Both the position numbers and the translations under genes were made by a program. Positions 3,124 through 41,313 of a stretch of 64,000 nucleotides of DNA are shown here, one piece after another. Position 1 is the stretch's first letter; each line of letters opens with the position of its first letter. The stretch is from Sedimentisphaera salicampi (GTDB lineage: Bacteria > Planctomycetota > Phycisphaerae > Sedimentisphaerales > Sedimentisphaeraceae): NCBI RefSeq assembly GCF_002117005.1, contig NZ_CP021023.1, forward strand, positions 806,001-870,000. The letters are read 5' to 3'. The notes under the pieces are model-generated. The model saw only the letters and a list, made by a program, of their open reading frames with translations. It was not told the origin of the DNA and made no database searches.

Positions 3124-5886
3124 TTACTGCTGCACCCAAAATTCAACAGAGAAAGGGGATAATTCACGTGAGAACTGCCGCCCTTTTCTGATACCCACAT
3201 ATTTTCCGATGTTGTTTCTGGTTTGCGAAGTATAGCAATAGCCTTTAAACTCAGCATCAACCCCCATATCAATATTGTATTCAAAAGGAGTATCAGATGA
3301 GCGATTAGTTAAAGCAATAACCAATTTGCTCTCAGGCGTTTTCCACGCCAGAATTCGCTGATTTTTTCGGGTCTGCTCTTCATCTACACGACAAACAACT
3401 GAATCCCACGGCATATATTTCAAGAATCCTGCAACAGCATTCCAGTGATACCAATTGTACTGCCAGTGTTTCTTTTTGATGTCAACATAACGTGTAAAAT
3501 CGTTATCACTTGAAGGCCGCCAAAAACCAAGGCCAAACCGCTCACCTATAAGAGTGTCAGTAGGTTTGAGGGCATGCAGCCAGAACCATGCAGGAGATTC
3601 ATTAAAAGCAAACCAGTTCATAATAGATTGAGCAGTATTTACAAATCTCCACTGAGAACCTGCGCCATCAAGATATTCGAATTCTACATTCAGCACAGGC
3701 CTTCCTTCTGCATCTTTCTTGAATCGGGAATCGCTGTATCTGATTTGTTCATCAGAATTTTTCCCGACACGATGCCAAGACCACCCATCCACGTATTCAA
3801 GAGCCTTGGAATCATCTCGAATAAGTATCGAGCCTTTGCCGTACTGGCCAGCCTGACTGTCTGCATGTATGAAAAGCTCAGGGAATTCATTCTTAACAAT
3901 CGGCGCGACTGCTCGAAACGTATCGCAGTACTCCTGCCCGCTATACTCACAGCAGCCGTAGCCTGCCTCACCAACGGTGGGTTCATTCTGCAAAGAAAAC
4001 ATTTTGACAGGGGCGATATTTTCCTGAACATATCTTAAATCTTTAACAATTGAATTGCCAAATTCAGTCAAAAATGTTTTATCAAATTTTTTCAGAGAAC
4101 CGCCAACAAACCTATTGTTAGATTTGAAATACGGAGCTGGAGACCAATACTCAAAGTTAAAGCCTTCAATACCGGATTCATCTATCATTTCTGCCAGTTC
4201 GCTGTTCTGAGAGCTCCAATTCTGCTCAAACTGCTTTCGCTCATCATCCAGCCCTGTATAAAAGAGCCCCATAGGAAGCCTCATATAACGGAATCCATGG
4301 CCGAATCCGAGCAGTTCATTATAGAATCTCTTTCGTTCCGATTCGGTTAAATCCCCCGGAATGCCCTTGCTGCGGTTGATTCCGCCCCTCCTTTCGGCTT
4401 CCGGCTGAATCTCCACACCAAGCCCCCAAACGGTTTGCTTCTCTTGACCTAACCGAACTGTGTATGAGCCGGACTCTGGATCTTGCAGTGATTGGGATTT
4501 CGGGTCTAACCCCTGCATTTCAGCGTACTCATATTTGATCGAATCGGCAATAACCAAACCATCTGCTTCGTTAGAAAGCTCCACATACCCTGAACGGCCT
4601 GCCCGCCCCTTTTCAAAGAAATGTGTACCCAGCAGTTTCCATTCACCGCCCGGCTTTCGCTGGTCAACAGTGTAGGTTGTTTGGCCGGATCTATGATGAA
4701 CTGTATATTTCGCATTTGACGCACGGTCAGGGTCGCCATCGGGAAGCCAGTAATAAACATTATACCAGCCCGAAACCAGAAAGCCTTGAAAATCAGGCTG
4801 CCATGGCCGCCATGCTATTATTTCCGGCTCATCCGACGGTTTCAAAGTACGGTAGAAACGGGTATGCCCCGCCCTTGAATAACGGTAGAATCTTCCGTAA
4901 TAATTGTCTGCATAAGTCGATTTCGGCCACCAGCCTTTAACCCTGCTTGAATTAATTCCCCACCCGGATGTTACAATAATATCCGGGTCAACCAAGCGTA
5001 TTGTATCAAAATTTAACGAGTAGCCGGAACTTAGCGAATTTTTCCCTGTGATTTTTAATTTTACAATCTGCCCGCCCGGGGAATCAACTTCCACCACGCC
5101 CGCTGTAAACATTGAATACTGCAAATCAGGATTAAACGAATCGATCTTACTGCCTAAATTTTTATTATCAAAAGACACTTTGTATTCGGCACCAGCCGAG
5201 CTTAATACGTTTCGTATTAGAATCACATAAAAACCATCTTTTTCTGCCTGAACAGGATACTTCACGACTGCCCCCGGGCTGTCAGATTTTATTCGATAAT
5301 AGAAGCCATCTTGTGAATTAACATCGCTCACATACTGGATATCTGAAGAGTCAGAAACCTCAAGCGGCTGAATCTTTTTTAGAGACAGTTCAGAGAAGGA
5401 GAGATTATAACTTTCGGAATCTTTATTTTTACCTACAGCCTTAAACCTGAATTTTTTGGAGCCGGCTGTCTGAAAACGATGCACACCCAAATTGACAGTT
5501 CTGAAGCTGTATTCTCCGCAGAGATCACCCTGATCGATCTTCAGGCCTTCACCAGCCAAACTTAATTCATCATTATCACTGCCCACAAGCAGCTCATAGA
5601 TGCCGTTATCAGGTTGATTGCGCTGCCTGACTTGCAGGGCATAAAATCCTGCTTCAGGGACATCAACAGCAAATTCAACGAACTGTTTTTTTTCGCTTAG
5701 ATATGCATGCTGATAACTGCTCCCTTGCGAAGATGCTTGTGCTGAATCTTTGCGAACTTCCAAAGAGGCACCCTTGGAAACCTCCGCATCAAGCTCTGTA
5801 AATCTATAAGTAAACACCTTCTCAGCGGAAAGAGCTGAGCTGTTTGACAGCAGTACTGCTGCCAAAACGGCAACCAGCTTCGCCAT
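3124..5886 (-). CDS. Secreted GH30-like glycoside hydrolase with tandem beta-sandwich modules and golvesin-like domain
   Basis: A predicted exported clan GH-A enzyme, closest in my reading to GH30 (xylanases, glucuronoxylanases, 1,6-galactanases). The ATG at 5884-5886 gives a clean signal peptide with GCGAG upstream; an in-frame ATG at 5910 has a poorer site. Order from the chosen start (920 aa): signal peptide about 1-21, two carbohydrate-binding-like beta-sandwich modules (about 25-170 and 190-298), a golvesin C-terminal-like domain (about 300-455, with motifs WYNVYYWLPDG, TVDQR, VIADSIK), then the catalytic barrel and side sandwich (about 485-920). The likely acid/base is Glu635 in SLQNEP. 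The likely nucleophile is Glu735, since a second Glu two residues on is Gln in the paralogue. It is a close paralogue of the C-terminal half of the product at 14949-20711. It is the last gene of its operon, 36 bp after the 852-aa gene. The exact substrate is not determined. Confidence 0.82.
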   Translation of the reverse strand: MAKLVAVLAAVLLSNSSALSAEKVFTYRFTELDAEVSKGASLEVRKDSAQASSQGSSYQHAYLSEKKQFVEFAVDVPEAGFYALQVRQRNQPDNGIYELLVGSDNDELSLAGEGLKIDQGDLCGEYSFRTVNLGVHRFQTAGSKKFRFKAVGKNKDSESYNLSFSELSLKKIQPLEVSDSSDIQYVSDVNSQDGFYYRIKSDSPGAVVKYPVQAEKDGFYVILIRNVLSSAGAEYKVSFDNKNLGSKIDSFNPDLQYSMFTAGVVEVDSPGGQIVKLKITGKNSLSSGYSLNFDTIRLVDPDIIVTSGWGINSSRVKGWWPKSTYADNYYGRFYRYSRAGHTRFYRTLKPSDEPEIIAWRPWQPDFQGFLVSGWYNVYYWLPDGDPDRASNAKYTVHHRSGQTTYTVDQRKPGGEWKLLGTHFFEKGRAGRSGYVELSNEADGLVIADSIKYEYAEMQGLDPKSQSLQDPESGSYTVRLGQEKQTVWGLGVEIQPEAERRGGINRSKGIPGDLTESERKRFYNELLGFGHGFRYMRLPMGLFYTGLDDERKQFEQNWSSQNSELAEMIDESGIEGFNFEYWSPAPYFKSNNRFVGGSLKKFDKTFLTEFGNSIVKDLRYVQENIAPVKMFSLQNEPTVGEAGYGCCEYSGQEYCDTFRAVAPIVKNEFPELFIHADSQAGQYGKGSILIRDDSKALEYVDGWSWHRVGKNSDEQIRYSDSRFKKDAEGRPVLNVEFEYLDGAGSQWRFVNTAQSIMNWFAFNESPAWFWLHALKPTDTLIGERFGLGFWRPSSDNDFTRYVDIKKKHWQYNWYHWNAVAGFLKYMPWDSVVCRVDEEQTRKNQRILAWKTPESKLVIALTNRSSDTPFEYNIDMGVDAEFKGYCYTSQTRNNIGKYVGIRKGRQFSRELSPFSVEFWVQQ

Positions 5887-5922
5887 TATAATCTCGCTTT
5901 TTATCATCATAATAAAACTGCA

Positions 5923-8481
5923 TCATTCATATATAAAGTAGGCTGTGGCAACTGTGTCAGTATCGGCTGTTGTGCGAACCCAATAGGCATTGAAACCTTC
6001 AGGGAAACGGTGCTTAACAGTACAGTCTGCGGGAATTTGAATCTTACGGTAAGTTTTCCAAGTGCCCTGTCCGTCGATATCCACTTCGATGCATACCTCT
6101 ACAGGTTCATCGTTTTTATGAGAAAGCTCCAGAGTTTTATGCTCGTAACCTGTCATCAAATACGGATCTGACGGCTCCCCAGCCTTAACATGGGTATCCT
6201 TCCAAGGGCCTCCCCTGCCGACAGGTTTGCCAAACTCCCAGAGATCATCGACTGCACCAACCCAAAGGGCAACTTTGCCATCCTCGGAACGAATAATATG
6301 TTTATTGCTCTCTGGAGCATTGTCAGCAATGCCGGAAAGTATTAAAAGGCCTCGCCAGCTGCAGTAATCTGCGATACGGCGATTGTGTGTTGCCACTGGA
6401 CGTATTTTGGAAAAACCGCCAGCATTTTTCGCCGGCAGTTCATAGAACGTGCCGTGAGCATTGAACAGGTCTCTTTCAGTTACAACTTCTCGGGAAATAC
6501 GCTCTAAACCAACCGGTCCGGTTTTATCAAAAGACTTATCACCTTTCGGAAGACGAAAACGTTTTCCCTTTTCGTCAACATATATCAGAGAAGCCTGATC
6601 TACGCTTATAACATCTCTAGGAACTTCCATATTTTCCTGCATAAAGGCATGGGCTTCTTCATCATCAACTCTGCACAAGATCATAGAACCTTTGCTATCC
6701 AGCATCATCTCATAATAGCCGGCGTTCTTAACTTTTCCGTTTTCTCTGATTTTAGCTGAAAATTGAAGCGTTTTTTTGTTTTCTCCGCGTGCTCGTATAT
6801 AACCGCCGCAGAGAGCTGAACTATCAGCTTTAGCTATACCATCAAACATTTTGTCCGGCTGGGTTGTGCGTTTTTCATGGCTGCTGTACTGGAAAAATAC
6901 TGTTACGCGTTCACAGTCCTTGTTGGTATGTACTCGAATCCATTCGCCCTTGTCTGAAGCTGAAAAAGCTGTCCATTTATAGCCGCCAGAATCTACAGTT
7001 ACAGTTTTAAGGTGCTCCCAGCTGCCGTCACCAAGCTTATCCACCTCAAATATAAACTCAACGGGTTTATCCTGCTGATGAACCAAATGCACGCTGCGAT
7101 TTTCAAAACCGGCAAAAAGGTACGGATCCGAAGCCTGCTGCTTTTTAACAGAATCATTCAGCCACACTGCCCCTCGGCCAATCGGTTTACCAAAACTGTC
7201 CAGCTGGTCGCTGCTTATAAACCTCAGGTTAGACTGAGACTGGCCGGGTGAGGCCATATCCCCTTTAGCGTTGAGAGTATTTAAGAACTCGCTTCTGGCA
7301 GTAACATTGCATCCCAAAACAACTTTCTCCCGCCACTGGGCAAAATCACCAAGCACCATCAAATAAGTTGACATCGGCCTGATTCCGCTGCGATCCTCAC
7401 GAGAAAAGCTCTTTGGAAACTGCCAAAACATCCCGTGCATATTCATAAGAAGCTCTTCTTCACCGATATCTCTAATTCTTGGCCACTCGGTATTCCATCC
7501 GTGCGCACCATCATAAGTATGAGAAGCTTTCGGTAAGCGGTAAAAGCTCCATTGCCCATTATCAAGCAGAGCGAGAATCAAAGAACGCTGATCCCAGCCA
7601 ATTGACCAAAGCTGGTCGGAACTGTTAGAATTGCCGTAGATTCCTCCTGGGCCTGTTACCTCAGTGAACTGATCTCTGCGGACAAGCTGCCAGTCCCCCT
7701 GCCCGTACCACTCTGCCAAAGCACCTGAGGGGATTGTAGGGTCGGTTTTTGCCCTAGGGCCTTTTTGTCCGTTATTCGCATAAACGAGCCGGTCTTGAGC
7801 TAAATAAAGTCCTTTTCCGTGATAGCCGGGCAAATCACTCTTAATCCCTTCTGGCGGAGCACCCGAATTGCCGTCTCTAATCAAACAATTAACTTCAAGA
7901 GTATTAACGTTGACTTCATAAAGCCCTTCTTCCATAGTTGCATAATATACTTTCGATGAAGGCTCAAACAAATGCCGAGCAATGCCTGTATGCCGGCCCA
8001 TCATCTTAGAATAAGGAATAACTCTAACATTACGCTCATCATCAACAACATAAGGACCGATGAACAGCTGGTTCGACTCACGATGAATCATACGAGCGGC
8101 GGGCGTGCCTCCAATGCTTTCAGGATGGGCAGTAAGATTTAAATCGCCATCAATTTCATAAAGATTTTCTCCGTCCGAACCTTTTGGGCTATGAGGGGCG
8201 TAAGTAACAACCCAGAGCCGATTAGCCCAAGGCACAACTGCACCAGTGCCGCATTCTCTGTTATCATTGAAATATGCAAGATGCGGATAAACACCCGACC
8301 AGCTTGAACGAGGTTCTGACCCGGCCACAGCGCTGCCTGCAGAAAAGAGAACAGAGCTAATCAGGAAAAGAAACATCAATGATTGAGGTAATTGTTTCTT
8401 TCTCGAGAATAACGAGATGACTTTTTGAGCAGTACTGAGAGCCTTAATTTTAGACAATGAGCAACCGGATAAAAGTTCCAC
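5923..8481 (-). CDS. Secreted protein of unknown function with internal ~180-residue duplication
   Basis: I do not recognise this 852-aa protein. It starts at GTG (8479-8481) with GAAAGGA just upstream and no better ATG. A long basic n-region precedes a hydrophobic stretch at about 34-53 with a plausible cleavage site, so export is expected. The first 340 residues contain repeated short strand-like units with Trp/Tyr (LWVVTY, LFIGPYV, LWSIGW), compatible with a beta-propeller. Residues about 349-532 and 676-852 are copies of one module. Both contain HG(M/T)F(W/Y)xxP, then IRPxxT, then FGKPxGRGxxW, then SDPYLxxGxE and a C-terminal sandwich-like part. No catalytic motif is evident. It has its own promoter at 8537-8564 and precedes the GH30-like gene by 36 bp, so a role in the same polysaccharide is likely. 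Confidence 0.7.
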   Translation of the reverse strand: MELLSGCSLSKIKALSTAQKVISLFSRKKQLPQSLMFLFLISSVLFSAGSAVAGSEPRSSWSGVYPHLAYFNDNRECGTGAVVPWANRLWVVTYAPHSPKGSDGENLYEIDGDLNLTAHPESIGGTPAARMIHRESNQLFIGPYVVDDERNVRVIPYSKMMGRHTGIARHLFEPSSKVYYATMEEGLYEVNVNTLEVNCLIRDGNSGAPPEGIKSDLPGYHGKGLYLAQDRLVYANNGQKGPRAKTDPTIPSGALAEWYGQGDWQLVRRDQFTEVTGPGGIYGNSNSSDQLWSIGWDQRSLILALLDNGQWSFYRLPKASHTYDGAHGWNTEWPRIRDIGEEELLMNMHGMFWQFPKSFSREDRSGIRPMSTYLMVLGDFAQWREKVVLGCNVTARSEFLNTLNAKGDMASPGQSQSNLRFISSDQLDSFGKPIGRGAVWLNDSVKKQQASDPYLFAGFENRSVHLVHQQDKPVEFIFEVDKLGDGSWEHLKTVTVDSGGYKWTAFSASDKGEWIRVHTNKDCERVTVFFQYSSHEKRTTQPDKMFDGIAKADSSALCGGYIRARGENKKTLQFSAKIRENGKVKNAGYYEMMLDSKGSMILCRVDDEEAHAFMQENMEVPRDVISVDQASLIYVDEKGKRFRLPKGDKSFDKTGPVGLERISREVVTERDLFNAHGTFYELPAKNAGGFSKIRPVATHNRRIADYCSWRGLLILSGIADNAPESNKHIIRSEDGKVALWVGAVDDLWEFGKPVGRGGPWKDTHVKAGEPSDPYLMTGYEHKTLELSHKNDEPVEVCIEVDIDGQGTWKTYRKIQIPADCTVKHRFPEGFNAYWVRTTADTDTVATAYFIYE

Positions 8482-8580: not shown

Positions 8581-10269
8581 TCAATCACCAAATTTATTTT
8601 TCAATAAACGAAAGTTTATGATAATTACAGCCAATATAAGTGCAGATGCAGCAATTAACAAAACTTTCCTTCCCTGCTCATTGAGAACAGCAATAATCAG
8701 AATTACCAATCCAGTTGAAAGAACATATGCAGAAATCAGAAAATGCCTCAACCTCCCCGCCTTAGCGAGAGAGGGCACTTTATCTGCGGAATCCCTTATT
8801 TCTATAACTCTGGAGCTATTTATTGATTCATTGCTGCCTGTAAATTCAAACAGCAGCAGCACAGAAACAGGTAATATTATTCCAATAATCCAAATTTCCA
8901 GCAAAAGCGGGTTTTCGATAAACCCCGATTTGGATTCAATAAAAGGCTTTAATAAAATCATCCCCGCAATACTTACCGAAAATGTTGCAATGACGGAGCT
9001 GAAGCCAATCTTCCGAGAAAACAAACTCCAGATTGAAGGAAGAACTATAGGCGTTACCAACATTCCTGTCAGATGCAGGACAACATTTTCTGCGCCTCCT
9101 AAAGAAGGAATCAAAACTGCAATAGATATAACAATTAAGCCCAGCAATAACGAAACAAAACGCCCAAACAACAACATCGATTTTTCAGTAATTCGAAAGC
9201 GGGCAATTTTGCCGTAAATCTCACGAGAGAATGCACCTGCAAAAACATTTATTTGTGAGTTAACCGTACTTGCTGTGGCGGCAAACATAGAAGCCGCTAT
9301 GAGCCCCAGCATCCCAGAAGGCAATACAGACTGACAGGCCATGATAAAGGCTTTTTCTGAATTTGCGTTTGAATCTATAATCCTATACATCATAGGAGGA
9401 AGCATCCAAAATATCGGACTCACCAAGAAGAGAAGACCAAAGAGCAACGCCGCCTTTTTAGCGTCTTGTTTTGATGAAACGCACAAAAAACGCTGCACAA
9501 ATGCCCACTGCCCTCCAATTTTAAAGAAATGAATAATGACCCATCCAACAAGAAACAGCGGAGGGAACTCCCTGCTGTATGGTATGAAAAACCTTTCGGG
9601 TGCATTGTCAATAAACGATTTAATTCCTCCAACCTCATTTAACAGCAATGGGATTACAATTAGTACTGAGGCGGTCAAAACAACAAATTGAATCACATCA
9701 GCCATTAAAACTGCCCAAAGCCCGCCAGCAGCAGCAACAAGCACCATTGAGACCCCGCAAATCACAATCGCCCAGTAAACTGACAGAGTTTGGCTGTTGC
9801 TGCCAGCTAAGAAGTGCCCTTCCGGGACTACAATCAACGCTGAAAGAATAACAGATACCGCATACAAAGCAATTCCAACATCAATCATACGGAAAATCGT
9901 TGATATCCAAGAATAAAAGTGTACTGCTTTCCGTCCAAAGCGATTCTCTATATATTCTGCAGGCGTAACTGCTCCTGATACCTTCCAGCGAGCAGCGATT
10001 GTGAAAGCCACCAACCATGCTGAAATCCCAATCATCATCAGTATGCTGACACCAACCAGCCCCTGGCGAAAGGCAATGCCGCCCCATACAACAAAAGTTC
10101 CTGAAGTGAACATAGCCATATGTCCTGAAATCCCCGCTATCCACCAAGGGGAACTTTCGCCTGCAGCAAACATATCTTTAGTATTTTTGATTTGGGAAGA
10201 ATATAATATACCAAGCGTTAAAAGGCCTGCTATATAACCTAAGAAGATGACAATGTCGAATTCAGTCAT
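8581..10269 (-). CDS. Sodium:solute symporter (SSS/SLC5 family), probably for a sugar
   Basis: A 562-aa inner-membrane secondary transporter with about 13-14 predicted hydrophobic helices and no signal peptide. The family imports sugars, amino acids or other solutes with sodium. Diagnostic stretches include an N-terminal LGYIAGLLTLG helix, the GRK loop after helix 3, and the core segment around residues 327-352 (MFAATASTVNSQIN followed by FAGAFSREI), which in this family contributes to the Na2 site. It lies 35 bp after the XylR-like regulator and before the secreted unknown and GH30-like genes, so import of a released sugar or oligosaccharide is the natural role. The SD is weak. Substrate is inferred only from context. 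Confidence 0.85.
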   Translation of the reverse strand: MTEFDIVIFLGYIAGLLTLGILYSSQIKNTKDMFAAGESSPWWIAGISGHMAMFTSGTFVVWGGIAFRQGLVGVSILMMIGISAWLVAFTIAARWKVSGAVTPAEYIENRFGRKAVHFYSWISTIFRMIDVGIALYAVSVILSALIVVPEGHFLAGSNSQTLSVYWAIVICGVSMVLVAAAGGLWAVLMADVIQFVVLTASVLIVIPLLLNEVGGIKSFIDNAPERFFIPYSREFPPLFLVGWVIIHFFKIGGQWAFVQRFLCVSSKQDAKKAALLFGLLFLVSPIFWMLPPMMYRIIDSNANSEKAFIMACQSVLPSGMLGLIAASMFAATASTVNSQINVFAGAFSREIYGKIARFRITEKSMLLFGRFVSLLLGLIVISIAVLIPSLGGAENVVLHLTGMLVTPIVLPSIWSLFSRKIGFSSVIATFSVSIAGMILLKPFIESKSGFIENPLLLEIWIIGIILPVSVLLLFEFTGSNESINSSRVIEIRDSADKVPSLAKAGRLRHFLISAYVLSTGLVILIIAVLNEQGRKVLLIAASALILAVIIINFRLLKNKFGD

Positions 10270-10304: not shown

Positions 10305-11465
10305 CTAGTCAACTGCGTTGCTCTTTGAGTATCTTTTACGAAACTCATCTGGAGTTATCCCCACGGCATTTTTGAAAAAACGTGAAAAATGCTGTGGATT
10401 GGTAAACTCAAACTTTGAAGCTATCAAATTTACTGAGAGCCTTGAATTTAGCAGCTTATCCTTTGCCATACCTATCCTGAGGCGGGTTATCTCTCCGGCA
10501 ACAGAACGATTTATTGCAGCATCAAATCTCTTTTCCAAAGCGCTTCGAGAAAAACATATATGGTCGGTTACATCTGATACTGAAATTTTACGCTGATAGT
10601 TGCTTCTTATAAAAATCAAAGCTTCTCTGACAATAGGGTCCTCTACTGCCAACACATCAGTTGACTGACGTGTTACAATTCTTACAGGTTCAATATTCAT
10701 CACACGGGCAGTTTCTTCCCCTGAGATAATCCTGTCTAAATGCTCGAGGGTACGATAACCAGCACCTTCAAAATCAAGTTCAATGCTTGAAAGTGCAGGA
10801 CGGGAAAGATGGCATATCAAGCTGTCGTTATCTACTCCCAAAACAGAGACCTCTTCAGGAACACTTACAGAAACAAGTTTGCAGGCATCCAATACAATCC
10901 TTGCGATATCGTCATTACATACCAGCAAAGCAATAGGCTTAGGCAGGGAATATATCCAGTCGGCAAGTTCTTTACGAGCCTGATTTATTTTTGTACTGCT
11001 GGATAAATTAAGGTTGTATGAATACAGCTCTGCCCCATTCTGTTCTATGATTCTATTAAAAGCGGTCTTTCGCTCATTGGCCCAAGTGATATTTCCACAA
11101 CTAATATAGCCGAAACGTTTGTGTCCAAGAGCAAATAAGTAATCACCTGCCATTTGCGCAATAGCCTCAGAATCGGCTTTCAAAGCAGCCACATCACTGC
11201 CTGCGGTATTATCAAGAGACATAACAACCTTGGGTTTATTAAAAGAGAGGATATTCTTTATGTCATAGTAGCCAAAAACAATCATCGCATCCGGATTTTG
11301 CTGGTTACACCACTTGGCAGGAAAAAGACCGCTATCGCAAACGTATTTGGGCGGGGGCAACAAAACGTCCCAAGATGGATTGAATCTAAGATAAGACTCC
11401 ACACCGGAAAGAAAACTTCTTCCGGGGCCTCGGGAGGTATCTACTAAAATCAGCAACTGTTTCAT
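10305..11465 (-). CDS. XylR-like transcriptional regulator (LacI-type sugar-binding domain plus AraC HTH)
   Basis: 386 aa, close to the length of E. coli XylR (about 390). The N-terminal 270 residues resemble a periplasmic-binding/LacI-type ligand domain (MKQLLILVDTSRGPGRSFL, LGHKRFGYISC, ALLVCNDDIA, VSVLGVDND, LSSIELDFEGAG). Residues about 280-383 form an AraC-family double helix-turn-helix, with the C-terminal signature NPQHFSRFFKNAVGITPDEFRKRY. It is expected to sense a sugar and activate or repress the genes it heads. The symporter starts 35 bp downstream. A promoter with a palindrome between -35 and -10 precedes it, suggesting autoregulation. Xylose as ligand is only suggested by family resemblance and the GH120/GH3 content elsewhere. 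Confidence 0.85.
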   Translation of the reverse strand: MKQLLILVDTSRGPGRSFLSGVESYLRFNPSWDVLLPPPKYVCDSGLFPAKWCNQQNPDAMIVFGYYDIKNILSFNKPKVVMSLDNTAGSDVAALKADSEAIAQMAGDYLFALGHKRFGYISCGNITWANERKTAFNRIIEQNGAELYSYNLNLSSSTKINQARKELADWIYSLPKPIALLVCNDDIARIVLDACKLVSVSVPEEVSVLGVDNDSLICHLSRPALSSIELDFEGAGYRTLEHLDRIISGEETARVMNIEPVRIVTRQSTDVLAVEDPIVREALIFIRSNYQRKISVSDVTDHICFSRSALEKRFDAAINRSVAGEITRLRIGMAKDKLLNSRLSVNLIASKFEFTNPQHFSRFFKNAVGITPDEFRKRYSKSNAVD

Positions 11466-11700: not shown

Positions 11701-14883
<3,183 letters not shown>

Positions 14884-14948: not shown

Positions 14949-17900
14949 TCACTGCTGCACCCAAAATTCAATGGAAAACGGCGGAACTTCACACGAAATC
15001 TGCTCTCCGCTGCTGCTGCCAATGAAGTCCCCATCGTTATTGCGAGTTTGTGAAGTGTATCTATAGCCTTTGAAAACTTCATTTACACCAACATCAACAT
15101 TAAAGACAAACGGGGCGTCTGGAGATCGGTTAGTTACCGCTAATACTAATTTCCCATCAGGCGTCTTCCATGCCAATATACGATTATCCATACGGACGCT
15201 GTCTTCATCAACATTATATATTACCGAGTCCCAAGGCATATACTTAAGAAAGCCGGCAATTGCGTTCCAATGATACCAATTGTACTGCCAGTGCCCCTTT
15301 TCTATGCTCGCATATTTGCTGAAGTCGCTGTCGCTTGAAGGACGCCAAAATCCCAAACCAAACCTTTCTCCAAGCAACTCAGTAGGCTTGAGAGCATGCA
15401 GCCAAAACCATGTTGGAGATTCAATAAACGAAAACCAATTCATTATAGATTGAGCAGTATTGACTGTCCTCCACGCAGAACCTGCTCCGAGATTATACTG
15501 CCATTCGCTATTAAAAACGGGCTTGCCTTCCGTATCCATATTGAAATGTGATTCTGCATACCTGATTTTTTCATCGGAGTTTTTGCCCTGCCAATGCCAA
15601 GACCAGCCATCTACATATTGCAAAGCAGAAGGGTCATCTCTCAATAATTCACTGCCATGGCCGTATTGGCCGGCCTCGCTGTCGGCATGAATAAAAAGCT
15701 CGGGAAAAGAAGATTTTATAATCGGCGCTACAACCTTAAAAGTATCGTAATACTGCTGATCGGTGTATTCGCAGCAGCCATAGCCGGCACCGCTAACGCT
15801 GGGCTCATTCTGCAGAGAAAACATTTTGACAGGCGCAATATTTTCCTGGACATACTGCAAATCATCCACAATTGAATTCCCAAAATCAGTTAGAAAGGCC
15901 TCATCAAATTGTTTCAAAGAACCGCCTATGAACTTATTATTCGATTTAAAATACGGAGCAGGAGACCAGTACTCAAAGTTAAAGCCTTCAATGCCGGATT
16001 CTTCTATCATTTCAGCCATTTCCCTGTTTTGCGAGCTCCAGCTCTGCTCAAACTGCTTTTGCTCATCATTCAGCCCTGTATAAAAGAGCCCCATTGGAAG
16101 ACGCATATAACGGAATCCATGGCCGAATCCGAGCAGCTCATCATAAAAGCGCTGGCGCTCGCTTTCAGTTAAATCAGAAGGAATGCCTCGGGCTCTGTTA
16201 GAATCAGAACCTCTCAAATCTTCAGGCTGAATCTCCACGCCAAGCCCCCAAACGGTTTGCTTGCTCTGGTTGTGCTGAACAATGTATGTACCTGTTTCTG
16301 CGTCTTGCAGCGGCGGAGTCTGAGGAGGCGGAGCGTCTTGAGAGAGCGCATATTCAAATTTGATTGAATCGGCAATCACAATCCCATCAGCATCGTTAGA
16401 AAGCTCCACGTATCCTGAACGTCCGGCACGCCCCTGCTCGAAGAAATGAGTACCTAAAAGTTTCCATTCACCGCCCGGCTGTCGCTGGTCGACCAAATAT
16501 GTAGTTTCCCCGCCTTTATGATATACAGTGTAAGGTGCATTTGAAGCACGGTCAGGTCTGCCGTCCGGAAGCCAGTAATAAACATTATACCATCCCGGCA
16601 CAAGAAAGCCTGTAAAATCAGGTCCCCATGGCTTCCAAGCAAATTTTTCAATAGTATCGCAGGGCTCAAGAGGAGGCCAGCGAAACCGGCAGTATCCAGG
16701 CGTAGAATAACTATACCATCTTCCATAGTGGTTCTGCGCGAATTGAGATGTTGGCCACCAGCCAGCAGTTCTTTCTCCATTGATTCCCCAGCCTGCTGTA
16801 ACGATAATATCAGGGCTTACCAACTGAATATTATCTATACCAATTTTATAACCGCTGCTGTTGTCATTTTTCCCAATCGTCCTGAATTCAAATATTTTTG
16901 TGCCAGAGCTGACAACATCCAAAACCCCCATGATTTCCATAGAATAAGATTCTTCAGGGCTGTACTGATCTACAATTGCTCCCAACGGTTCATCATCTAT
17001 ATAAAGCTGATACTGCCCACCGTCTTGCCCATTGACATTTCTAACAGTAACAACTTGATTTCCAGTTTCAGTTATATCAACAGGGACTCGCAGAATCTGG
17101 CTCGACATCTCAGAATTAACCTGATAATGATAGCCATCTGCCGAGTTCGTGCTGCTTTCATTACTCAAGGCATTTGAGGGCAAAGCCGAAACAGGCTTTA
17201 CCTCTTTTAACGCTATATCAATTAAAGACAAGTTATAATCGTCTGAATCTGGATTTTTACCGATAACTTTAAATTTGAATTTCTTAACCCCTTCTGAAGC
17301 AAAGGTATAAAGTCCCAAATTTGCTTTTTCAACCATTGCTTCGGTGATAATGTCCCCTTGGTCGAATGTGAGATTTTTTCCGACAGGGTTATAATCAAAG
17401 CCATTTTCGCTTATGTAAAGCTGATACATACCGCTGTCTGGTTCTTTTCTATTAACCACCTGAATTGAGTAAGTGCCCGGATTCGGCAAGTAAACATCAA
17501 ACTCAACAAAATCGTTTACAGCCTGAAGGTCTGCATGAACATACTGATGCTGCGGGAGATACCATTTCCAAGACTCACTTTCATTTGAAACTTCCCCTCC
17601 AGAAGAAACAGCAACCGGCAAATCGTTACAATTGTATGTTTGAATATTAGGCACATAATAATCAGGCTCATCAGAAAAACAAAAATCAAACGGATATAAA
17701 CCGCAATTAAACCAGCTTGAAGCCAACACTGCAAGATCTGCAAGGCCCACCTTACAGTCCGGCTGATTGCCTTCATCGCCTCCGCCCGCAACATCAAACT
17801 GCAAATCCAAATCCTGCAGATTGCTGCAAACGGGAGTTTCGCTGACCTCATAACAGAGATCAGCAATTTCAGCCTCATCCTTTGCGTAATTATAGATGCG

Positions 17901-20711
17901 CAAATCATCCATAACTCCATTGAATACGCCGCTGATTGTCCCGTCATCCTGCAAAATACTGCCCCCGATTACAAGCTGGGCATCAGTTTTATTGATCCTG
18001 AATCCGGGCTCACTGTCAACTTTGGCTCCATTATAATAAAGCTTTCCGCCATCTTCATCTACTGTAAATGCAAGATGTGTCCATTCGCCAACGAGAGGGG
18101 GATCATAAGACATATTTTTAGTACCAACGCCTGCCGAGCTGATGCTCATAGAATCGCCTGTTGGCGGTATCGTCCAGAACCAGTCTGCACCGCTGGTCTG
18201 CCAGTCTGAGCCTTCGCGTTTAGAGATTATGCCTGTCCATCTGCCGGGAACGCCTTCCCACTTTACCCATAAAGACACAGTGATTTCATCGCTTAATTCC
18301 GCCGGCGAATCGGAGCCGGCAAGTGCTGCTGCATCAGAATATTGGCCAAAATCAAGGCCTTCGCTGGTCTTAGCAGGATTAGCCCCCGGAACAAATGCAT
18401 CAACATTCAGAGATCCCCCCTGGGAGATCGCATCCCTATTTTCCCCGCTGCTGTCAATGTATTTACCGAAGCTGCCGGGGATATATTCAGAGCTTACATA
18501 TTTAGACATATCCAATGTCCAATGCGCAACTTTTCTTTTAACAGCCAAGCTCACCACATCCGAATACACCATACCGCCGTCGTGGGATACTTGGCAGTAA
18601 TAATAACCTTCATCGCTAAGCTGAACATTCTCAATATAAAAGTCTGGGTTAATGCTGGGAGTGCCTTTAGGCTGGTCAGTGGACGAATCAATCTCGCCGC
18701 TTTCTGAGAAGTACCATTGGCAAACCGGATTAGACAAATTATCTATACTTACTGAAAACTCAGCGTCCTCGCCCCAATCGACTATATGATCGTTCGGCTG
18801 AGATTTAATTATATCCGATTCGTTCATTACACTGAGCGAGACATTGTCCACCCAATGATCCCGCTGCAGAGATTCAATTTGAAGTATTAAGCTGCTTCCC
18901 TCATCAATATTTGAGTCTGAAAATGAATCAGTGTCTATAAGAAACTCAAAGGTCTGCCAGGCTAACCAGTCTCCTACTTCTGTATCGCCTGAGTGAGTGT
19001 AGGTCATGGGGATTTCCGACGACCAAAGATGCGACCCATCATCCTGAAGCAAACTGGCCTTCATAACCGCATCTGTTGCAGTAGCAAGCCATCGCACCAA
19101 GCAGGCGTTAAACCTGAGGCGGAAAATTTCTCCTGAGGACCAAGGATGCTGAATTATCTGACGAATTGTTCCGGTTGTGCTTCCCGCTGGAAGGCGGAGC
19201 ACCTGATTACCCTCAGGCCCCGGAACAGACTTTCTTGTTTCAACAAATTTTGATTCCAGCTTAACTCTCTTCTGCGCAGCTTCAAGAGAATCCCAGTTAG
19301 GCACATCAATCAGCAAATTGTCGGCATCAGGCCTGTGCGGCTCTTCAAAATCACCATTAGAAACCAATTCATCCTCTTCGGAGATTTCATCCTGCGGATT
19401 ATCTTTAAACATCTGCCAAAAGAAAATCCAAGGATCAATATAATAAGCTTGGCCTTCTTCAATAACTCGAAATTCAAAGTGTGTATGAGGGCGGTTTCCG
19501 CTATAGACACCTCCTGAGAGCGCATAGTTTTCGCCTTTCGTTATAGTTTCGTGTTCAGGCATAAGCATTTCATCAAGATGGTGCGCCTGGAGCCACCACG
19601 TGCTCCCATTAGCCCAATGGCGAACGCCACGCCAGCGATTATTAATATCGCCGGCCTCCAGAGAATCAAAGAGGTAATGGTCATCAAAACCTATCGGGGC
19701 ATAAAGCGGTGTTTCCGGAGGCATATTAATATCCAGTCCTTCATGCGTATATGTTGGTTTTTGAGGGCCGATCCACACATTCCTTCCATACCAGCAGTCC
19801 CGAATATCCGGGCTGTCGCGTGTCTCGGGATACCACCAATGAATTTCTTCCGGGCAGATGCGGTCATTTAGATCATTAACCACAAGGCGGGCTTTCCGTT
19901 TCGGACGACATTTCGTCCTGTGAACCATCCAGCCTCCGTCATCCTCAAAGATATCGCTCACGGCATCCAGCCAGATGCGCATTCCATTAACCACCCACGG
20001 CTCGTAAAAACTTTCCTGATCAGCAACAATCCGCTCAAACCGGTAATTCTCTCCGTCTATATCAAACTCGGCAGAAAATGAGTAGTTTGGACTTTCAGTA
20101 ATATGAGCTTCTGTTGACAGCAATCGAATTCTGCGAACCTGACCGCTGCGTAATGTAAAATGAAATTCATCACCAATATTCAATTCAACTGGTGTGATAG
20201 TATTTTTGGCTGTTCTCTGAACCACGCGCTGAGCTGCAGGGACAAATTTAACAGCATCAGCCACGATTTCGGCATTTTGTTTTTTAGTGCCGTCCAGTTC
20301 GACATAAGAATCCCCATCCAGCTGATATGTTCCCATAAAATGCCATCCGGGATTTTCCTTTTGAATGAAGGGGTGCGTAGTTATCCCGCCGGTATGCTTA
20401 ACATTCCAATAAGCAAAAACATCTTTGTCTTCATAATCCCGCCAGTACAAATACACATCAAAACGGCCATCAATATTCGGGCTGTAGCGGGCATAACTGG
20501 GAGAAGGGTTTGATCCATCGCTCACAGCAACACTTCCGCTCCATGAATTCGGATCATTGAGCATTGTAAAGCCGGTCTGTGAAAATTTATCAGAAGCAGT
20601 ATCTATCACTATCTGGTTTGCAGAACTTGCCTCATCGCCAAGTACAGCATTGCCATTCAGCAAAGATAAGGCAATCACCGCAAACAGAAATATTTTAAAC
20701 GAATGTGGCAT
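14949..20711 (-). CDS. Giant secreted fusion: golvesin-like, M23 peptidase-like, CBM, Ig, LamG, dockerin-like, and GH30-like enzyme
   Basis: 1920 aa from the ATG at 20709-20711, which has AAGGGAG six bases upstream; an in-frame ATG 17 codons earlier lacks a good site. Order: signal peptide (1-25); golvesin-like domain (about 30-160); M23/LytM-like domain (about 300-420) with HEGLD (His323, Asp327), His377 and HTH (His409, His411), the full zinc/catalytic set; CBM4-like module (about 450-630); Ig-like (about 635-725); LamG (about 728-955); dockerin-like repeat (about 968-1015); two beta-sandwich modules (about 1020-1300); second golvesin-like domain (about 1301-1455); GH30-like catalytic part (about 1485-1920) with acid/base Glu1636 in SLQNEP and nucleophile Glu1736 in NSEW. 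Residues about 450-1015 match the 703-aa neighbour and about 1020-1920 match the 920-aa GH30-like protein. It therefore reads as a three-way fusion. No frameshift interrupts it. GH2 follows by 68 bp. Confidence 0.85.
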   Translation of the reverse strand: MPHSFKIFLFAVIALSLLNGNAVLGDEASSANQIVIDTASDKFSQTGFTMLNDPNSWSGSVAVSDGSNPSPSYARYSPNIDGRFDVYLYWRDYEDKDVFAYWNVKHTGGITTHPFIQKENPGWHFMGTYQLDGDSYVELDGTKKQNAEIVADAVKFVPAAQRVVQRTAKNTITPVELNIGDEFHFTLRSGQVRRIRLLSTEAHITESPNYSFSAEFDIDGENYRFERIVADQESFYEPWVVNGMRIWLDAVSDIFEDDGGWMVHRTKCRPKRKARLVVNDLNDRICPEEIHWWYPETRDSPDIRDCWYGRNVWIGPQKPTYTHEGLDINMPPETPLYAPIGFDDHYLFDSLEAGDINNRWRGVRHWANGSTWWLQAHHLDEMLMPEHETITKGENYALSGGVYSGNRPHTHFEFRVIEEGQAYYIDPWIFFWQMFKDNPQDEISEEDELVSNGDFEEPHRPDADNLLIDVPNWDSLEAAQKRVKLESKFVETRKSVPGPEGNQVLRLPAGSTTGTIRQIIQHPWSSGEIFRLRFNACLVRWLATATDAVMKASLLQDDGSHLWSSEIPMTYTHSGDTEVGDWLAWQTFEFLIDTDSFSDSNIDEGSSLILQIESLQRDHWVDNVSLSVMNESDIIKSQPNDHIVDWGEDAEFSVSIDNLSNPVCQWYFSESGEIDSSTDQPKGTPSINPDFYIENVQLSDEGYYYCQVSHDGGMVYSDVVSLAVKRKVAHWTLDMSKYVSSEYIPGSFGKYIDSSGENRDAISQGGSLNVDAFVPGANPAKTSEGLDFGQYSDAAALAGSDSPAELSDEITVSLWVKWEGVPGRWTGIISKREGSDWQTSGADWFWTIPPTGDSMSISSAGVGTKNMSYDPPLVGEWTHLAFTVDEDGGKLYYNGAKVDSEPGFRINKTDAQLVIGGSILQDDGTISGVFNGVMDDLRIYNYAKDEAEIADLCYEVSETPVCSNLQDLDLQFDVAGGGDEGNQPDCKVGLADLAVLASSWFNCGLYPFDFCFSDEPDYYVPNIQTYNCNDLPVAVSSGGEVSNESESWKWYLPQHQYVHADLQAVNDFVEFDVYLPNPGTYSIQVVNRKEPDSGMYQLYISENGFDYNPVGKNLTFDQGDIITEAMVEKANLGLYTFASEGVKKFKFKVIGKNPDSDDYNLSLIDIALKEVKPVSALPSNALSNESSTNSADGYHYQVNSEMSSQILRVPVDITETGNQVVTVRNVNGQDGGQYQLYIDDEPLGAIVDQYSPEESYSMEIMGVLDVVSSGTKIFEFRTIGKNDNSSGYKIGIDNIQLVSPDIIVTAGWGINGERTAGWWPTSQFAQNHYGRWYSYSTPGYCRFRWPPLEPCDTIEKFAWKPWGPDFTGFLVPGWYNVYYWLPDGRPDRASNAPYTVYHKGGETTYLVDQRQPGGEWKLLGTHFFEQGRAGRSGYVELSNDADGIVIADSIKFEYALSQDAPPPQTPPLQDAETGTYIVQHNQSKQTVWGLGVEIQPEDLRGSDSNRARGIPSDLTESERQRFYDELLGFGHGFRYMRLPMGLFYTGLNDEQKQFEQSWSSQNREMAEMIEESGIEGFNFEYWSPAPYFKSNNKFIGGSLKQFDEAFLTDFGNSIVDDLQYVQENIAPVKMFSLQNEPSVSGAGYGCCEYTDQQYYDTFKVVAPIIKSSFPELFIHADSEAGQYGHGSELLRDDPSALQYVDGWSWHWQGKNSDEKIRYAESHFNMDTEGKPVFNSEWQYNLGAGSAWRTVNTAQSIMNWFSFIESPTWFWLHALKPTELLGERFGLGFWRPSSDSDFSKYASIEKGHWQYNWYHWNAIAGFLKYMPWDSVIYNVDEDSVRMDNRILAWKTPDGKLVLAVTNRSPDAPFVFNVDVGVNEVFKGYRYTSQTRNNDGDFIGSSSGEQISCEVPPFSIEFWVQQ

Positions 20712-20783
20712 AAATTTCTCCCTTAAGAGAATCTTTTCTGAAATTTTCATTAAAGCTGCCAAAAATTAAGCAGCAATATGACG

Positions 20784-20819
20784 ATAAAACGCCGGACGGC
20801 TGATTAGAACCATCCGGCG
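20784..20819 (-). terminator. Terminator of the pseudopilin/LamG operon
   Basis: On the minus strand CGCCGGATGG (20810-20819) pairs with CCGTCCGGCG (20790-20799) over ten positions with one G-U pair, followed by TTTTATC. It separates the 703-aa protein gene from the giant fusion gene, whose transcription must start downstream of it or by read-through. Confidence 0.8.
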
Positions 20820-20853: not shown

Positions 20854-22965
20854 TTAATAACAATAGTCTTCAGGATATAGACCGCAATTGAGCCATGTAG
20901 AGGCAAACTCAAGGAAGTCCGGCAGGCCAATCTTGCAATCCGGCTGGTCGCCTTCCGGGCCGCCGCCTGCAACATCAAACTGCAAATCCAAATCAAGCAT
21001 ATTGCTGCAAACTGGTGTTTCGCTGATATCGTAGTAGATATCTGCGATTTCAGCTTCATCCTTGGCATAATTATAGATGCGCAAATCATCCATAACTCCA
21101 TTGAATGCACCGCCAATTGTGCCGTCTTCTCTCAAGATGCTGCCTCCAATTACAAGCTGGGCATCGGTTTTATTGATCTTGAAATCGGGCTCAGTATCAA
21201 CATTGACACCATTATAATAAAGTTTACCGCCGTCAGCATTAGCTGTAAAGGCAAGATGAGTCCATTCGCCTTCTGCTGGAGGATCATAAGAGAGATTCTC
21301 AGTACCAACGCCTGCCGAGCTGATGCTCATATAATCGCCTGACGGAGGTATCGTCCAGAACCAGTCTGACCCGCTCTGCCAGTCAGGGTCTTGACGTTTA
21401 GAAACAATGCCTGTCCAGCTTCCAGGGACGCCTTCCGACTTAACCCACAAAGATACAGTGATCTCGTCGCTGAATTCAGCAGGTGAATCGGTGCCTCCAA
21501 GTGCTGCTGCATCAGGATTTTCGTCAAGGTCTAAGCCTTCATTGGTCTTAGCAGGGTCTGCACCGGGAACAAAGGCATCAACAGCAGGAACTGCGTAAGG
21601 AACCGCATCGCGGCCTTCTCCGCTGCTGTCCAGATAAGTATCGTTTACAAAGTCAGCGGTGTCCAATGTCCAGTGAGCTACGATACGCTTAACTGCCAAG
21701 CCGGCAGTATCTGAATAGACTGTTCCGCCGTCATTTGTTACTTCACAGTAGTAATAACCTTCATCACTGAGCTGAACATTATCAATTGTGAGGGTTGGGT
21801 CTGTATCCGTAGAGCCAATGGCCTGATCCTCAGCAGGGTCAATCACTCCGTCAGCAGAGAGATACCACTGATATGTTTCCTGAGAAATGCTGTCTGCAGT
21901 TAATGTAAAGGCTGCAGTATCGCCTGTAGAAACGACCTGACTCTCAGGCTGCTGAGTAATTATCGGAACACTTTGGAGCGTTTCAAACATCCAATCAGCA
22001 CCGGCAATATTATCTTGACTGCCTACAGGATAGCCTAAACCTTCATCCACGCTCCAATAGTACAGCCCATCAAAGTTGAGACCTGTAACAGTTACGCTGG
22101 CAATCTCAGGTGATTCTGTGCCGAGGGCGATAGTGTCAACATAATAAAGATTCGGATCTTCGGAAACATTCTGGTCTTCGCTCATAAACAGGTGATGCTC
22201 GGTTATATCCGGATTTATCTGTGAAGGGTTGGATGGGTCTAATCCAGTGTTCCACTGCAAATTAACATCAACCTGATTCCCTGCCGGAGTGCCTACATTG
22301 TCTGCTCCATAGGCAGGAACAGGGTTATGTGCACCAGCGGCCGGTTCAGCCTGCAGGGAAACATTATCAACCCAATGATTACGATTAACTGAACTTACCT
22401 CTAAAATCAGATCAGAGCCTTCACTAACGCCTTCACCAGAAAAGAGTGCGGGGTCAATCTCAAACTCGAATGCCTGATAAGGCTCCCAATCCCCAACTTC
22501 ATTTGCGCCGGTATGAGTACCAGTCATATCAACTTCTGCTGACCAGAGCTCAGTCATCTCAGCATCATCCTGGAGCAGGCGTGCGCCCATAACACCGTCT
22601 GTGGCCGGGGCTTCCCAGCGAACAGAGCAGGCGTTAAACGAAAGCCTGTAAACCTCTGCATGAGACCATGGATGGTATGTAGATTGCTGAATTACACCAG
22701 TGCTCCACCCGCCAGTCATCCTAAGCACCTGATTGCCTTCAGGGCCTGGAACCGCAGTTCTGTTATCTACCTCCTTGGTCTCTAATCGAACTAAATTGTC
22801 ATCATGCCCTGACACCCAATCAGTTACTGTCGTAACGTAATTGTTCGCCCCGGGCAGGTTGGGATCTTGAAAGCCTCCATTAGAAATCAATTCTGTTCCT
22901 TCGGCGCTGAACGCTGCACAATGAGCGAAAATCATCGCCATGACTACACTAAAAATACTTTTCAT
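20854..22965 (-). CDS. Secreted LamG-domain protein with CBM4-like, Fn3-like, Ig-like and dockerin-like modules
   Basis: 703 aa from the ATG at 22963-22965, with AAAGGA nine bases upstream; the longer frame would start at TTG. Order: signal peptide (about 1-21), CBM4-like module (25-210, ending DNVSL), fibronectin-like region (215-335), Ig-like domain (340-425, DEGYYYCEV), LamG (430-650) and a C-terminal calcium-loop-like dockerin repeat (655-703, LDLQFDV then WLNCGLYPEDY). No catalytic residues are recognised, so it is probably a carbohydrate-binding or surface-display protein. It shares its whole domain string, and long nearly identical DNA stretches in LamG, with the middle of the 1920-aa protein. 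It is co-oriented 61 bp after a pseudopilin gene and ends at a strong terminator. Confidence 0.78.
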   Translation of the reverse strand: MKSIFSVVMAMIFAHCAAFSAEGTELISNGGFQDPNLPGANNYVTTVTDWVSGHDDNLVRLETKEVDNRTAVPGPEGNQVLRMTGGWSTGVIQQSTYHPWSHAEVYRLSFNACSVRWEAPATDGVMGARLLQDDAEMTELWSAEVDMTGTHTGANEVGDWEPYQAFEFEIDPALFSGEGVSEGSDLILEVSSVNRNHWVDNVSLQAEPAAGAHNPVPAYGADNVGTPAGNQVDVNLQWNTGLDPSNPSQINPDITEHHLFMSEDQNVSEDPNLYYVDTIALGTESPEIASVTVTGLNFDGLYYWSVDEGLGYPVGSQDNIAGADWMFETLQSVPIITQQPESQVVSTGDTAAFTLTADSISQETYQWYLSADGVIDPAEDQAIGSTDTDPTLTIDNVQLSDEGYYYCEVTNDGGTVYSDTAGLAVKRIVAHWTLDTADFVNDTYLDSSGEGRDAVPYAVPAVDAFVPGADPAKTNEGLDLDENPDAAALGGTDSPAEFSDEITVSLWVKSEGVPGSWTGIVSKRQDPDWQSGSDWFWTIPPSGDYMSISSAGVGTENLSYDPPAEGEWTHLAFTANADGGKLYYNGVNVDTEPDFKINKTDAQLVIGGSILREDGTIGGAFNGVMDDLRIYNYAKDEAEIADIYYDISETPVCSNMLDLDLQFDVAGGGPEGDQPDCKIGLPDFLEFASTWLNCGLYPEDYCY

Positions 22966-23026
22966 AATACACAATCCTTTCAAAAAAACATAAAATACTA
23001 TTCTTGCTGCCTTAAAAACTAATCAT

Positions 23027-36505: not shown

Positions 36506-36537
36506 CAAATTCACCTTTTAGCGAGTTATGTATATAC

Positions 36538-40196: not shown

Positions 40197-41313
40197 TTAT
40201 TTTTGCCAGCCTTCAGAGAAATAAGGAAAATCTCTGAGATCAACGCTTTGATTTTGGTCAAAATCTGCAGAAATCCCTTCGCCTTTTTCAAGCCAGCTTT
40301 TTCCAAACTGAAAGAGATCAGTTTCGTCCACCCGGCAGTCTTTATTCAAATCACCCTTAAGATACGGTGAACAGGGGCCATCATTCATAAGAGATCTAAT
40401 TTCTTCGTGGGAAAGAGGTCTGCCGTATATGACCACATCGTCAAGTATTCCAAAGAAAGCTTCCTCAACCGCAGCTTCTGCGGGTTTGCCAATTCGAATC
40501 GGCACAGAGGTATTCGCTGGCGAATGAACGATATCAGTTCGTTCTGCAGCAAGCTCGCCATTTATATAAAGCCGACCTTCGTTTTCATTCAGTGTACAGG
40601 CGACATGCACCCACTCACCCGGCGAATAGCCGTTTGCTGCCATAATGGTTTGATGATTGGATTCACTGCCAACGCGGAACCATATCTCACCGGTCTCACG
40701 CAATTTAACATTCCAGCCGGTGCCGCTGTTATCGTTAGGCAATTTATCAACGGGAACCTGAAGCTGCAGTCTTCTGGATTTCATCCAGAAGGCAGCTGTG
40801 AGCCATTCGGATGAGCCTGCTTGATTGCCAAAGTCTATGCTGTCATCATCGCCGTCAAAGCGTATTGCACTAATACCTCTTTTGGCTTCGCCCTCAGAAG
40901 TAAATTCGGGACTGCCGAACTTTTCGTAAGAATGATTATCTGCAAAGCGGTTTTCAGTGTCTAATTCAAGCGGCCAGTATGCTGCTTTTGTGTTAAAATA
41001 CAATTGATCTATCATTTCATCGGGTGTTACAACCCTGACGTTATCATCAAAATCCTGAATAGCATTATGCACCTCCTCAAGACCATAACTCCATGCGTGG
41101 ACTATAACAAAACTATAACCTTCCTCACTGGTAGAATCTGCCGCTAACTGATTGATACTGTTTGCCAATTGTTCACCCGTTCGGCTGAGACCATCATACT
41201 GAGGCGAATCCCATAAAGTAAATCTGGTGGTTACCATAGGCTTGCCGTCAAACCACAGCATATCACCGTCATAGCGGGCATAATCCCCTGCAACATCTAC
41301 ATAGAACAAACCT
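40197..41313 (-). repeat. 1.1-kb near-identical block, copy in the second GxGYxYP gene
   Basis: Positions 40197-41313 align without gaps to 43065-44181 (offset 2868). By eye I count about 13 differences, most near the stop codon. Roughly 790 bp in the middle show none. Just upstream in the genes similarity drops abruptly. Confidence 0.85.

Follow-up and report, generated by a model that had tools for sequence, protein, structure and literature searches.

The window analysed here is a stretch of 64,000 nucleotides, bases 806001–870000 of the 3.19-Mb single-contig genome of Sedimentisphaera salicampi. Coordinates written with two dots refer to features on its minus strand. At 14949..20711 there is one open frame that encodes 1920 aa from an ATG at 20711; the frame extends to 14949–20762, giving 1937 aa if begun at an upstream TTG. 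Read from N- to C-terminus, the product consists of a signal peptide, a golvesin-like domain, an M23/LytM-like metallopeptidase, a CBM-like domain, an Ig domain, a LamG region, a dockerin-like repeat, a 12-residue linker, a xanthan-binding-like region, a second golvesin domain, and a GH30 region. The original prediction had taken this gene for three proteins joined in one frame, and that reading is borne out: the joins are exact and the same frame occurs in a second species. Indeed, the gene is almost certainly a genuine fusion of three secreted-protein genes, namely a golvesin/M23-like gene, a copy of the neighboring LamG gene, and a copy of a GH30 gene from the same cluster. Judging from the sequence, its product is one exported chain of ~1900 residues.

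Layout of the fused gene and its cluster

The first part of the chain begins with a signal peptide, recognized by eye (residues 1–25, MPHSFKIFLFAVIALSLLNGNAVLG; 20637..20711). It is followed by golvesin-like domain 1 (residues 27–157; 20241..20633), which scores 34.7 bits against Pfam PF25275, over the cut-off of 31.6, and by the M23/LytM-like metallopeptidase, which includes an N-terminal beta domain of its own (residues 158–440; 19392..20240), assigned from an AlphaFold2 model, LytM structures, and invariant residues. The middle part opens with the CBM-like beta domain (residues 445–630; 18822..19379), delimited by its match to the mature N-terminus of a 709-aa neighbor; this domain finds no match in Pfam and none of significance in the PDB, so the label “CBM-like” is a reading by eye. 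The Ig-like domain (residues 634–725; 18537..18812) matches Pfam Ig_3 with 36.7 bits and I-set with 32.9 bits, the Pfam match covering residues 635–709. The LamG region (residues 726–960; 17832..18536) matches Laminin_G_3 (PF13385) at 803–950 with 77.2 bits, against a cut-off of 27.6. The middle part closes with a single dockerin-like repeat (residues 961–1012; 17676..17831), the equivalent of the end of the 709-aa protein. Beyond the 12-aa linker (residues 1013–1024; 17640..17675), the last part comprises a xanthan-binding-module-like region (residues 1025–1310; 16782..17639), placed by structure-database matches to 7ehg, MiXBM (E 5e-11), and to part of 6f2p, a xanthan lyase (E 3e-23); golvesin domain 2 (residues 1311–1455; 16347..16781), with 78.1 bits against the PF25275 cut-off of 31.6 (98.4 bits for the whole protein, best stretch 1316–1453); and the GH30 catalytic region (residues 1471–1920; 14952..16301), assigned from an AlphaFold2 model, GH30 structures, and both catalytic Glu residues. 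In this genome, golvesin domains occur only in the fusion and in a 928-aa GH30 protein.

The dockerin-like element was correctly described as internal and near an old gene end, but it consists of just one EF-hand-like repeat, which Pfam does not recognize, and lacks the duplicated calcium-binding repeat of dockerin type I. Cohesin (PF00963) has no match in the whole genome, so no cellulosome is implied; a true dockerin is ruled out by the lack of both matches. The genome holds more than 30 Ig/LamG-type relatives, and those that were read end in a dockerin-like repeat. Elsewhere in the window, two putative glycosidases of the GxGYxYP type, each with a LamG domain, lie in tandem at 40197–43061 and 43065–45908.

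The fused gene belongs to a run of eight genes whose order is common to this genome and to that of a second species of the genus (G063): a prepilin-like gene, the 709-aa LamG gene, the fusion, a GH2 enzyme, a regulator, an SSF symporter, an 852-aa protein, and the 928-aa GH30 protein. By Pfam and BLASTP, the 709-aa product (20854..22983), a LamG/Ig/dockerin-like secreted protein, is a paralogue of the middle third of the fusion, and the 928-aa product (3124..5910), with a signal peptide, binding modules, golvesin, and GH30, is a paralogue of the last third. In the gap that separates the fused gene from the 709-aa gene, a pattern scan finds a terminator-like hairpin at 20790..20819 (12 pairs, 8 of them GC, then TTTTAT); it is the strongest listed, in a region whose count of such sites is not above the shuffled mean. 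Next to the fusion lies the gene for a GH2 enzyme of the beta-galactosidase type (11701..14880; 87.5% identical in the second species and in the same order), followed by a sugar-type transcription regulator with a periplasmic-binding-like domain and an AraC-type HTH (10305..11465; 93%) and a sodium/solute symporter of the SSF type (8581..10269; 91%), all three assigned by Pfam. The regulator appears in two pieces in the second species only because two sequence stretches meet inside the gene. The 852-aa protein (5923..8481; 92%) has neither a significant Pfam match nor a PDB match; a 738-aa protein at 34298–36514 likewise lacks a significant Pfam match. No RNA families or tRNAs were found in the 64-kb window.

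Joins, source proteins, and age of the fusion

BLASTP alignments place the joins precisely. Residue 444 of the fusion aligns with residue 27 of the 709-aa neighbor, right past its apparent signal peptide, and residue 1012 aligns with the final residue of that protein. Residue 1025 aligns with residue 34 of the 928-aa protein, again right past an apparent signal peptide, and this alignment continues to a shared final residue. The 12-aa linker has a counterpart in neither source protein. Identity to the neighbor is 54% over fusion residues 444–629 and 66% over 634–1012, and identity to the 928-aa protein is 61% over 1025–1920. These are the closest relatives in the genome: 54–67% for the LamG neighbor, where all others reach at most 37%, and 61% for the GH30 protein. 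The last third had been described as the equivalent of a 920-aa GH30-like protein at 3124–5886, which agrees with the 61% match, although the longest frame of that protein has 928 codons. The middle was said to be the equivalent of a 703-aa neighbor; the matches uphold this in part, but the neighbor has 709 aa and its segment at ~213–340 is missing from the fusion.

The internal dockerin-like repeat had also been taken to mark an old gene end. Five LamG paralogues whose ends were read, the 709-aa neighbor and four others, all end shortly past such a repeat, so the internal copy marks a former C-terminus; the joins, moreover, fall on mature protein ends. The reverse history, in which one long gene was split, is unlikely, because the LamG paralogues end at the dockerin-like repeat and because GH30 relatives outside the genus (G023, G369, and G675) lie in 668–901-aa frames without an M23 part.

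The second species carries the same fused frame without a stop, 89–92% identical, with both joins open and the linkers conserved. Comparison of the two species gives a dN/dS of 0.11 over the full length of the gene, 0.052 over the M23 part, and 0.093 over GH30; all domains of the fusion are under purifying selection, the M23 part being the most constrained. The dS between the fusion and its paralogues is ~1.0 and ~2.0, values near 2 being rough estimates, and the dS between the species is 0.47. The duplications therefore predate the species split. Could an assembly or sequencing error have joined three genes? The parts are paralogues of neighboring genes, which are able to mislead assembly. 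However, the same uninterrupted frame and the same linkers occur in a separate genome of another species, and the copies differ by 32–39% in protein, with a dS of 1–2, and are thus too unlike to be confused. No stop or frameshift lies at 17600–17700, the stretch for which the original prediction had considered one, and the second species reads through the same 12-aa linker. Such an error, or a frameshift, is ruled out by this agreement, and its probability is close to nil.

The fusion is narrowly distributed. Among 161 genomes of the order, the M23-like domain occurs in four: the two fusions and two others, in 720- and 835-aa frames, the former (G618) reading M23, PKD, golvesin. The M23–GH30 join is found within the order only in the two genomes of the genus. 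No further copies of the architecture were found in 161 order genomes, in samples of 248 class and 392 phylum genomes, or in a sample of 80 named loci, so the search for the same architecture in related genomes recovered it in the second species of the genus only. Within their phylum, Sedimentisphaerales are reported to show the largest number of unique module combinations, with ~10% of their CAZymes being multi-modular, and the available part of that account names no CAZyme–peptidase join among them (PMC11131199). A join of M23 and GH30 is described in the available parts of neither PMC9662197 nor PMC11131199. The original prediction had called a peptidase and a glycosidase in one chain unusual. 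Two-enzyme chains with M23 have precedent among peptidoglycan hydrolases (PMC9662197); hence, only the partner, a GH30 enzyme with binding modules, is unusual.

Two predicted catalytic parts and their relatives

Pfam M23 matches the fusion at residues 322–416 with 23.5 bits, below the cut-off of 28.7, and this part is therefore named “M23-like”. Across the genome, the M23 Pfam search gives nothing over the cut-off, and the only scoring frames are the fusion and one 1251-aa frame. The AlphaFold2 model of the part, built from 58 sequences, has a pLDDT of 92.5, and its C-terminal half matches LytM domains with Z 13–15 over ~125–144 residues, which agrees with the fold proposed from the sequence. 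Predicted ligands H323, D327, and H411 and catalytic H378 and H409 are all invariant in the 58 sequences. The pattern H(x)nD, an upstream His, and HxH reported for M23 enzymes is that of these five residues (PMC9662197). At position 317, the alignment has Tyr in 54 of 58 sequences and Phe in 3 of 58, and the fusion has Gln; the Tyr is the intermediate-stabilizing residue of M23 enzymes, a role that an Arg may also fill. A near-invariant Gly of the alignment is also replaced, by Pro, in the fusion. Thus, the earlier claim of an M23/LytM domain with all zinc and catalytic residues holds for the ligands and the catalytic histidines but not for the stabilizing Tyr, which is Gln. On the model, the part has an M23/LytM fold with catalytic residues conserved.

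The Pfam GH30 match of the last part covers the C-domain only and scores 20.5 bits, below the cut-off of 22. A profile of the fusion’s GH30 group finds GH30 structures with E 1e-9. The AlphaFold2 model, of moderate confidence (pLDDT 71), aligns with XynC over 356 residues (Z 29.3, rmsd 3.2) and has a barrel with a side beta domain. The acid/base E1636, in the motif NEP, and the nucleophile E1736 are both present in seven of seven aligned sequences. The last part is therefore GH30-like by sequence and, in the predicted model, GH30 by fold, as had been proposed along with its catalytic residues. As for the profile searches of each third, LamG passed (77.2 bits), whereas M23 and GH30 fell below their Pfam cut-offs and were upheld by structure prediction.

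How do the two parts compare with known systems? Like peptidase M23 (LytM, lysostaphin, ShyA, and phi29 gp13), the fusion has a predicted LytM fold, the H(x)nD and HxH motifs, and the upstream His. Unlike these, it scores below the Pfam cut-off, has an extra N-terminal beta domain, and keeps different partner domains, and its relatives are mostly standalone without an apparent signal peptide. In phage phi29 gp13 (3csq), too, the M23 unit has an enzyme partner, a lysozyme-like unit. This phage protein is reported to have Gln at the place that matches the Tyr (PMC9662197), as does the fusion. GH30 xylanases and glucosidases (XynC, 1nof, AcXbh30A, and glucocerebrosidase) share the fold over ~370 residues with Z 24–29 and have both Glu residues in place, but the fusion’s GH30 is only 13–18% identical to them and its close relatives are rare and form their own group. 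Among 392 Planctomycetota genomes, such relatives were found in two (G023 and G369), with one more in the order (G675), at 36–40% identity. This group may be a separate GH30 subfamily. Within the GH30-like group (the protein at 3124–5910; L031, L135, and L145), the relatives outside the genus carry an insertion of ~100 residues. The C-terminal modules of Paenibacillus xanthan lyase and MiXBM resemble the fusion in having a xanthan-binding-like module and then golvesin, in the same order; in the fusion, however, the enzyme that these modules accompany is GH30 and not one that cuts xanthan, and their xanthan-like binding specificity is putative.

The M23-like family was followed through one genome per species in 84,980 species. 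It has 92 confirmed loci, of which 80 were kept (L052–L131), and it occurs sporadically in Planctomycetota, Lentisphaerota, Kiritimatiellota, Verrucomicrobiota, Bacteroidota, Bacillota, Acidobacteriota, Latescibacterota, and other phyla, mostly in metagenome-assembled genomes. Most members are ~295 aa, standalone, and without an apparent signal peptide by a simple hydrophobicity rule, a rule that scored some Tat-substrate-like starts as negative (e.g., L062 and L068). A C-terminal golvesin domain, usually together with a hydrophobic leader, is present in 25 of the 80 loci, with a PKD domain between M23 and golvesin where looked at. These secreted M23–PKD–golvesin proteins (in Dyadobacter, Sphingobacterium, Acidobacteriota, Planctomycetota, and others) share with the fusion the M23-like family, export, and golvesin, but their golvesin is C-terminal after PKD, they have no glycosidase, and they form a separate clade. 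The tree separates the 18 sampled golvesin-bearing members from the 39 standalone ones; the fusion, on a long branch, falls between these two clades without a settled place. The gene neighbors of the family are mixed, with a FAD-dependent oxidoreductase the commonest (6 of 72) and no single pathway; some members adjoin SusD, sulfatase, GH92, or acetyl xylan esterase genes. No relative of the fusion’s GH30 was seen among the sampled neighbors. No description of the family was found, nor any paper in the open literature joining M23, golvesin, and polysaccharide utilization.

What the chain may do

The fusion is genuine and conserved, and its parts are all of known kinds; everything beyond the predicted folds and residues we infer. 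On balance, we lean slightly toward a mechanism in which the chain binds an exopolymer and cuts both its protein and its sugar parts, and the cluster takes up the products. In this mechanism, modules of the golvesin, xanthan-binding-like, LamG, and CBM-like kinds would attach the exported chain to polysaccharide outside the cell. The zinc site would cut peptide bonds in matrix protein cross-links or glycoproteins and GH30 would cut beta-glycosidic bonds, so that both matrix components would be opened at one spot. The GH2 enzyme would further cut the freed sugars, and sodium-coupled uptake through the SSF symporter would follow, under the control of the sugar-type regulator. The likely setting would be the breakdown of mat or sediment exopolymer. 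Xanthan-binding modules of the MiXBM-like kind improve xanthan breakdown in a xanthanase (PMC10049358), and the xanthan-binding-like modules here suggest an acidic exopolymer as the target. They are the one clue found to the type of substrate; the earlier proposal of algal or bacterial glycoprotein or wall material is a guess. In favor of the mechanism are the exact joins, the shared eight-gene cluster, the purifying selection in every domain, and the predicted folds with their conserved residues. In addition, golvesin is joined to the M23-like family in those 25 of 80 loci elsewhere, and some members of the family lie beside SusD, sulfatase, GH92, or acetyl xylan esterase genes. Against it stand the Gln for Tyr in M23, although the same is reported for phage phi29 gp13, the mixed family neighbors, and a xanthan-like specificity that derives solely from module similarity. 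Moreover, since most M23 relatives are standalone and lack an apparent signal peptide, they fit poorly with an obvious matrix role for the family.

Other functions have to be weighed against this one. The chain could be a lysin that attacks other bacteria, its binding modules and GH30 passing the sheath or capsule and its M23 part cutting peptidoglycan cross-links. Among solved structures, those nearest to the M23 part are peptidoglycan hydrolases and their regulators, and joined peptidase and glycosidase units are usual in peptidoglycan hydrolases (PMC9662197). However, Pfam finds no LysM, SH3b, or other peptidoglycan-binding domain in the fusion, and the gene sits within a sugar-utilization cluster. 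GH30 is not known as a family of peptidoglycan glycosidases, which also counts against a lysin, and we consider this function unlikely. Slightly less probable still are two further explanations, which we hold to be about equally improbable. In one, the chain is a polyprotein, exported whole and then cut at the linkers into three ordinary mature proteins; cutting at the joins would regenerate the source proteins, whose mature ends lie there, but inspection of the linkers by eye revealed no recognized processing site. In the other, the M23-like part has lost its peptidase activity and acts as a binding or regulatory module, as EnvC-type LytM domains do. The degenerate LytM domain of EnvC does rank high in the structure comparison, near active ones, and the replacements of the usual catalytic Tyr by Gln and of the near-invariant Gly by Pro would fit. 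Yet the zinc ligands and both catalytic histidines are all retained, and at a dN/dS of 0.052 this domain evolves under the strongest constraint in the chain.

A broader possibility, which we put forward tentatively as less probable than the dual-cutting mechanism itself, is that the M23 part represents a distinct, unnamed metallohydrolase family whose members, found across many phyla, mostly stay inside the cell and are otherwise exported along with golvesin. Its substrate would be not peptidoglycan but a peptide or amide bond linked with the degradation of polysaccharides, and its fusion to a glycosidase in this genus would have produced an enzyme that cuts matrix glycoconjugates in two ways.

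What does the fusion mean for this genus and for the family? The fused gene and the unfused paralogues of two of its three parts lie in the same cluster, which makes a clear record of how large modular enzymes of this group arise. If active as predicted, the product would be a naturally occurring enzyme that attacks an exopolymer from its protein and its sugar side alike, and it would offer a marker by which to trace a little-noticed M23-like family among bacteria that degrade polysaccharides.
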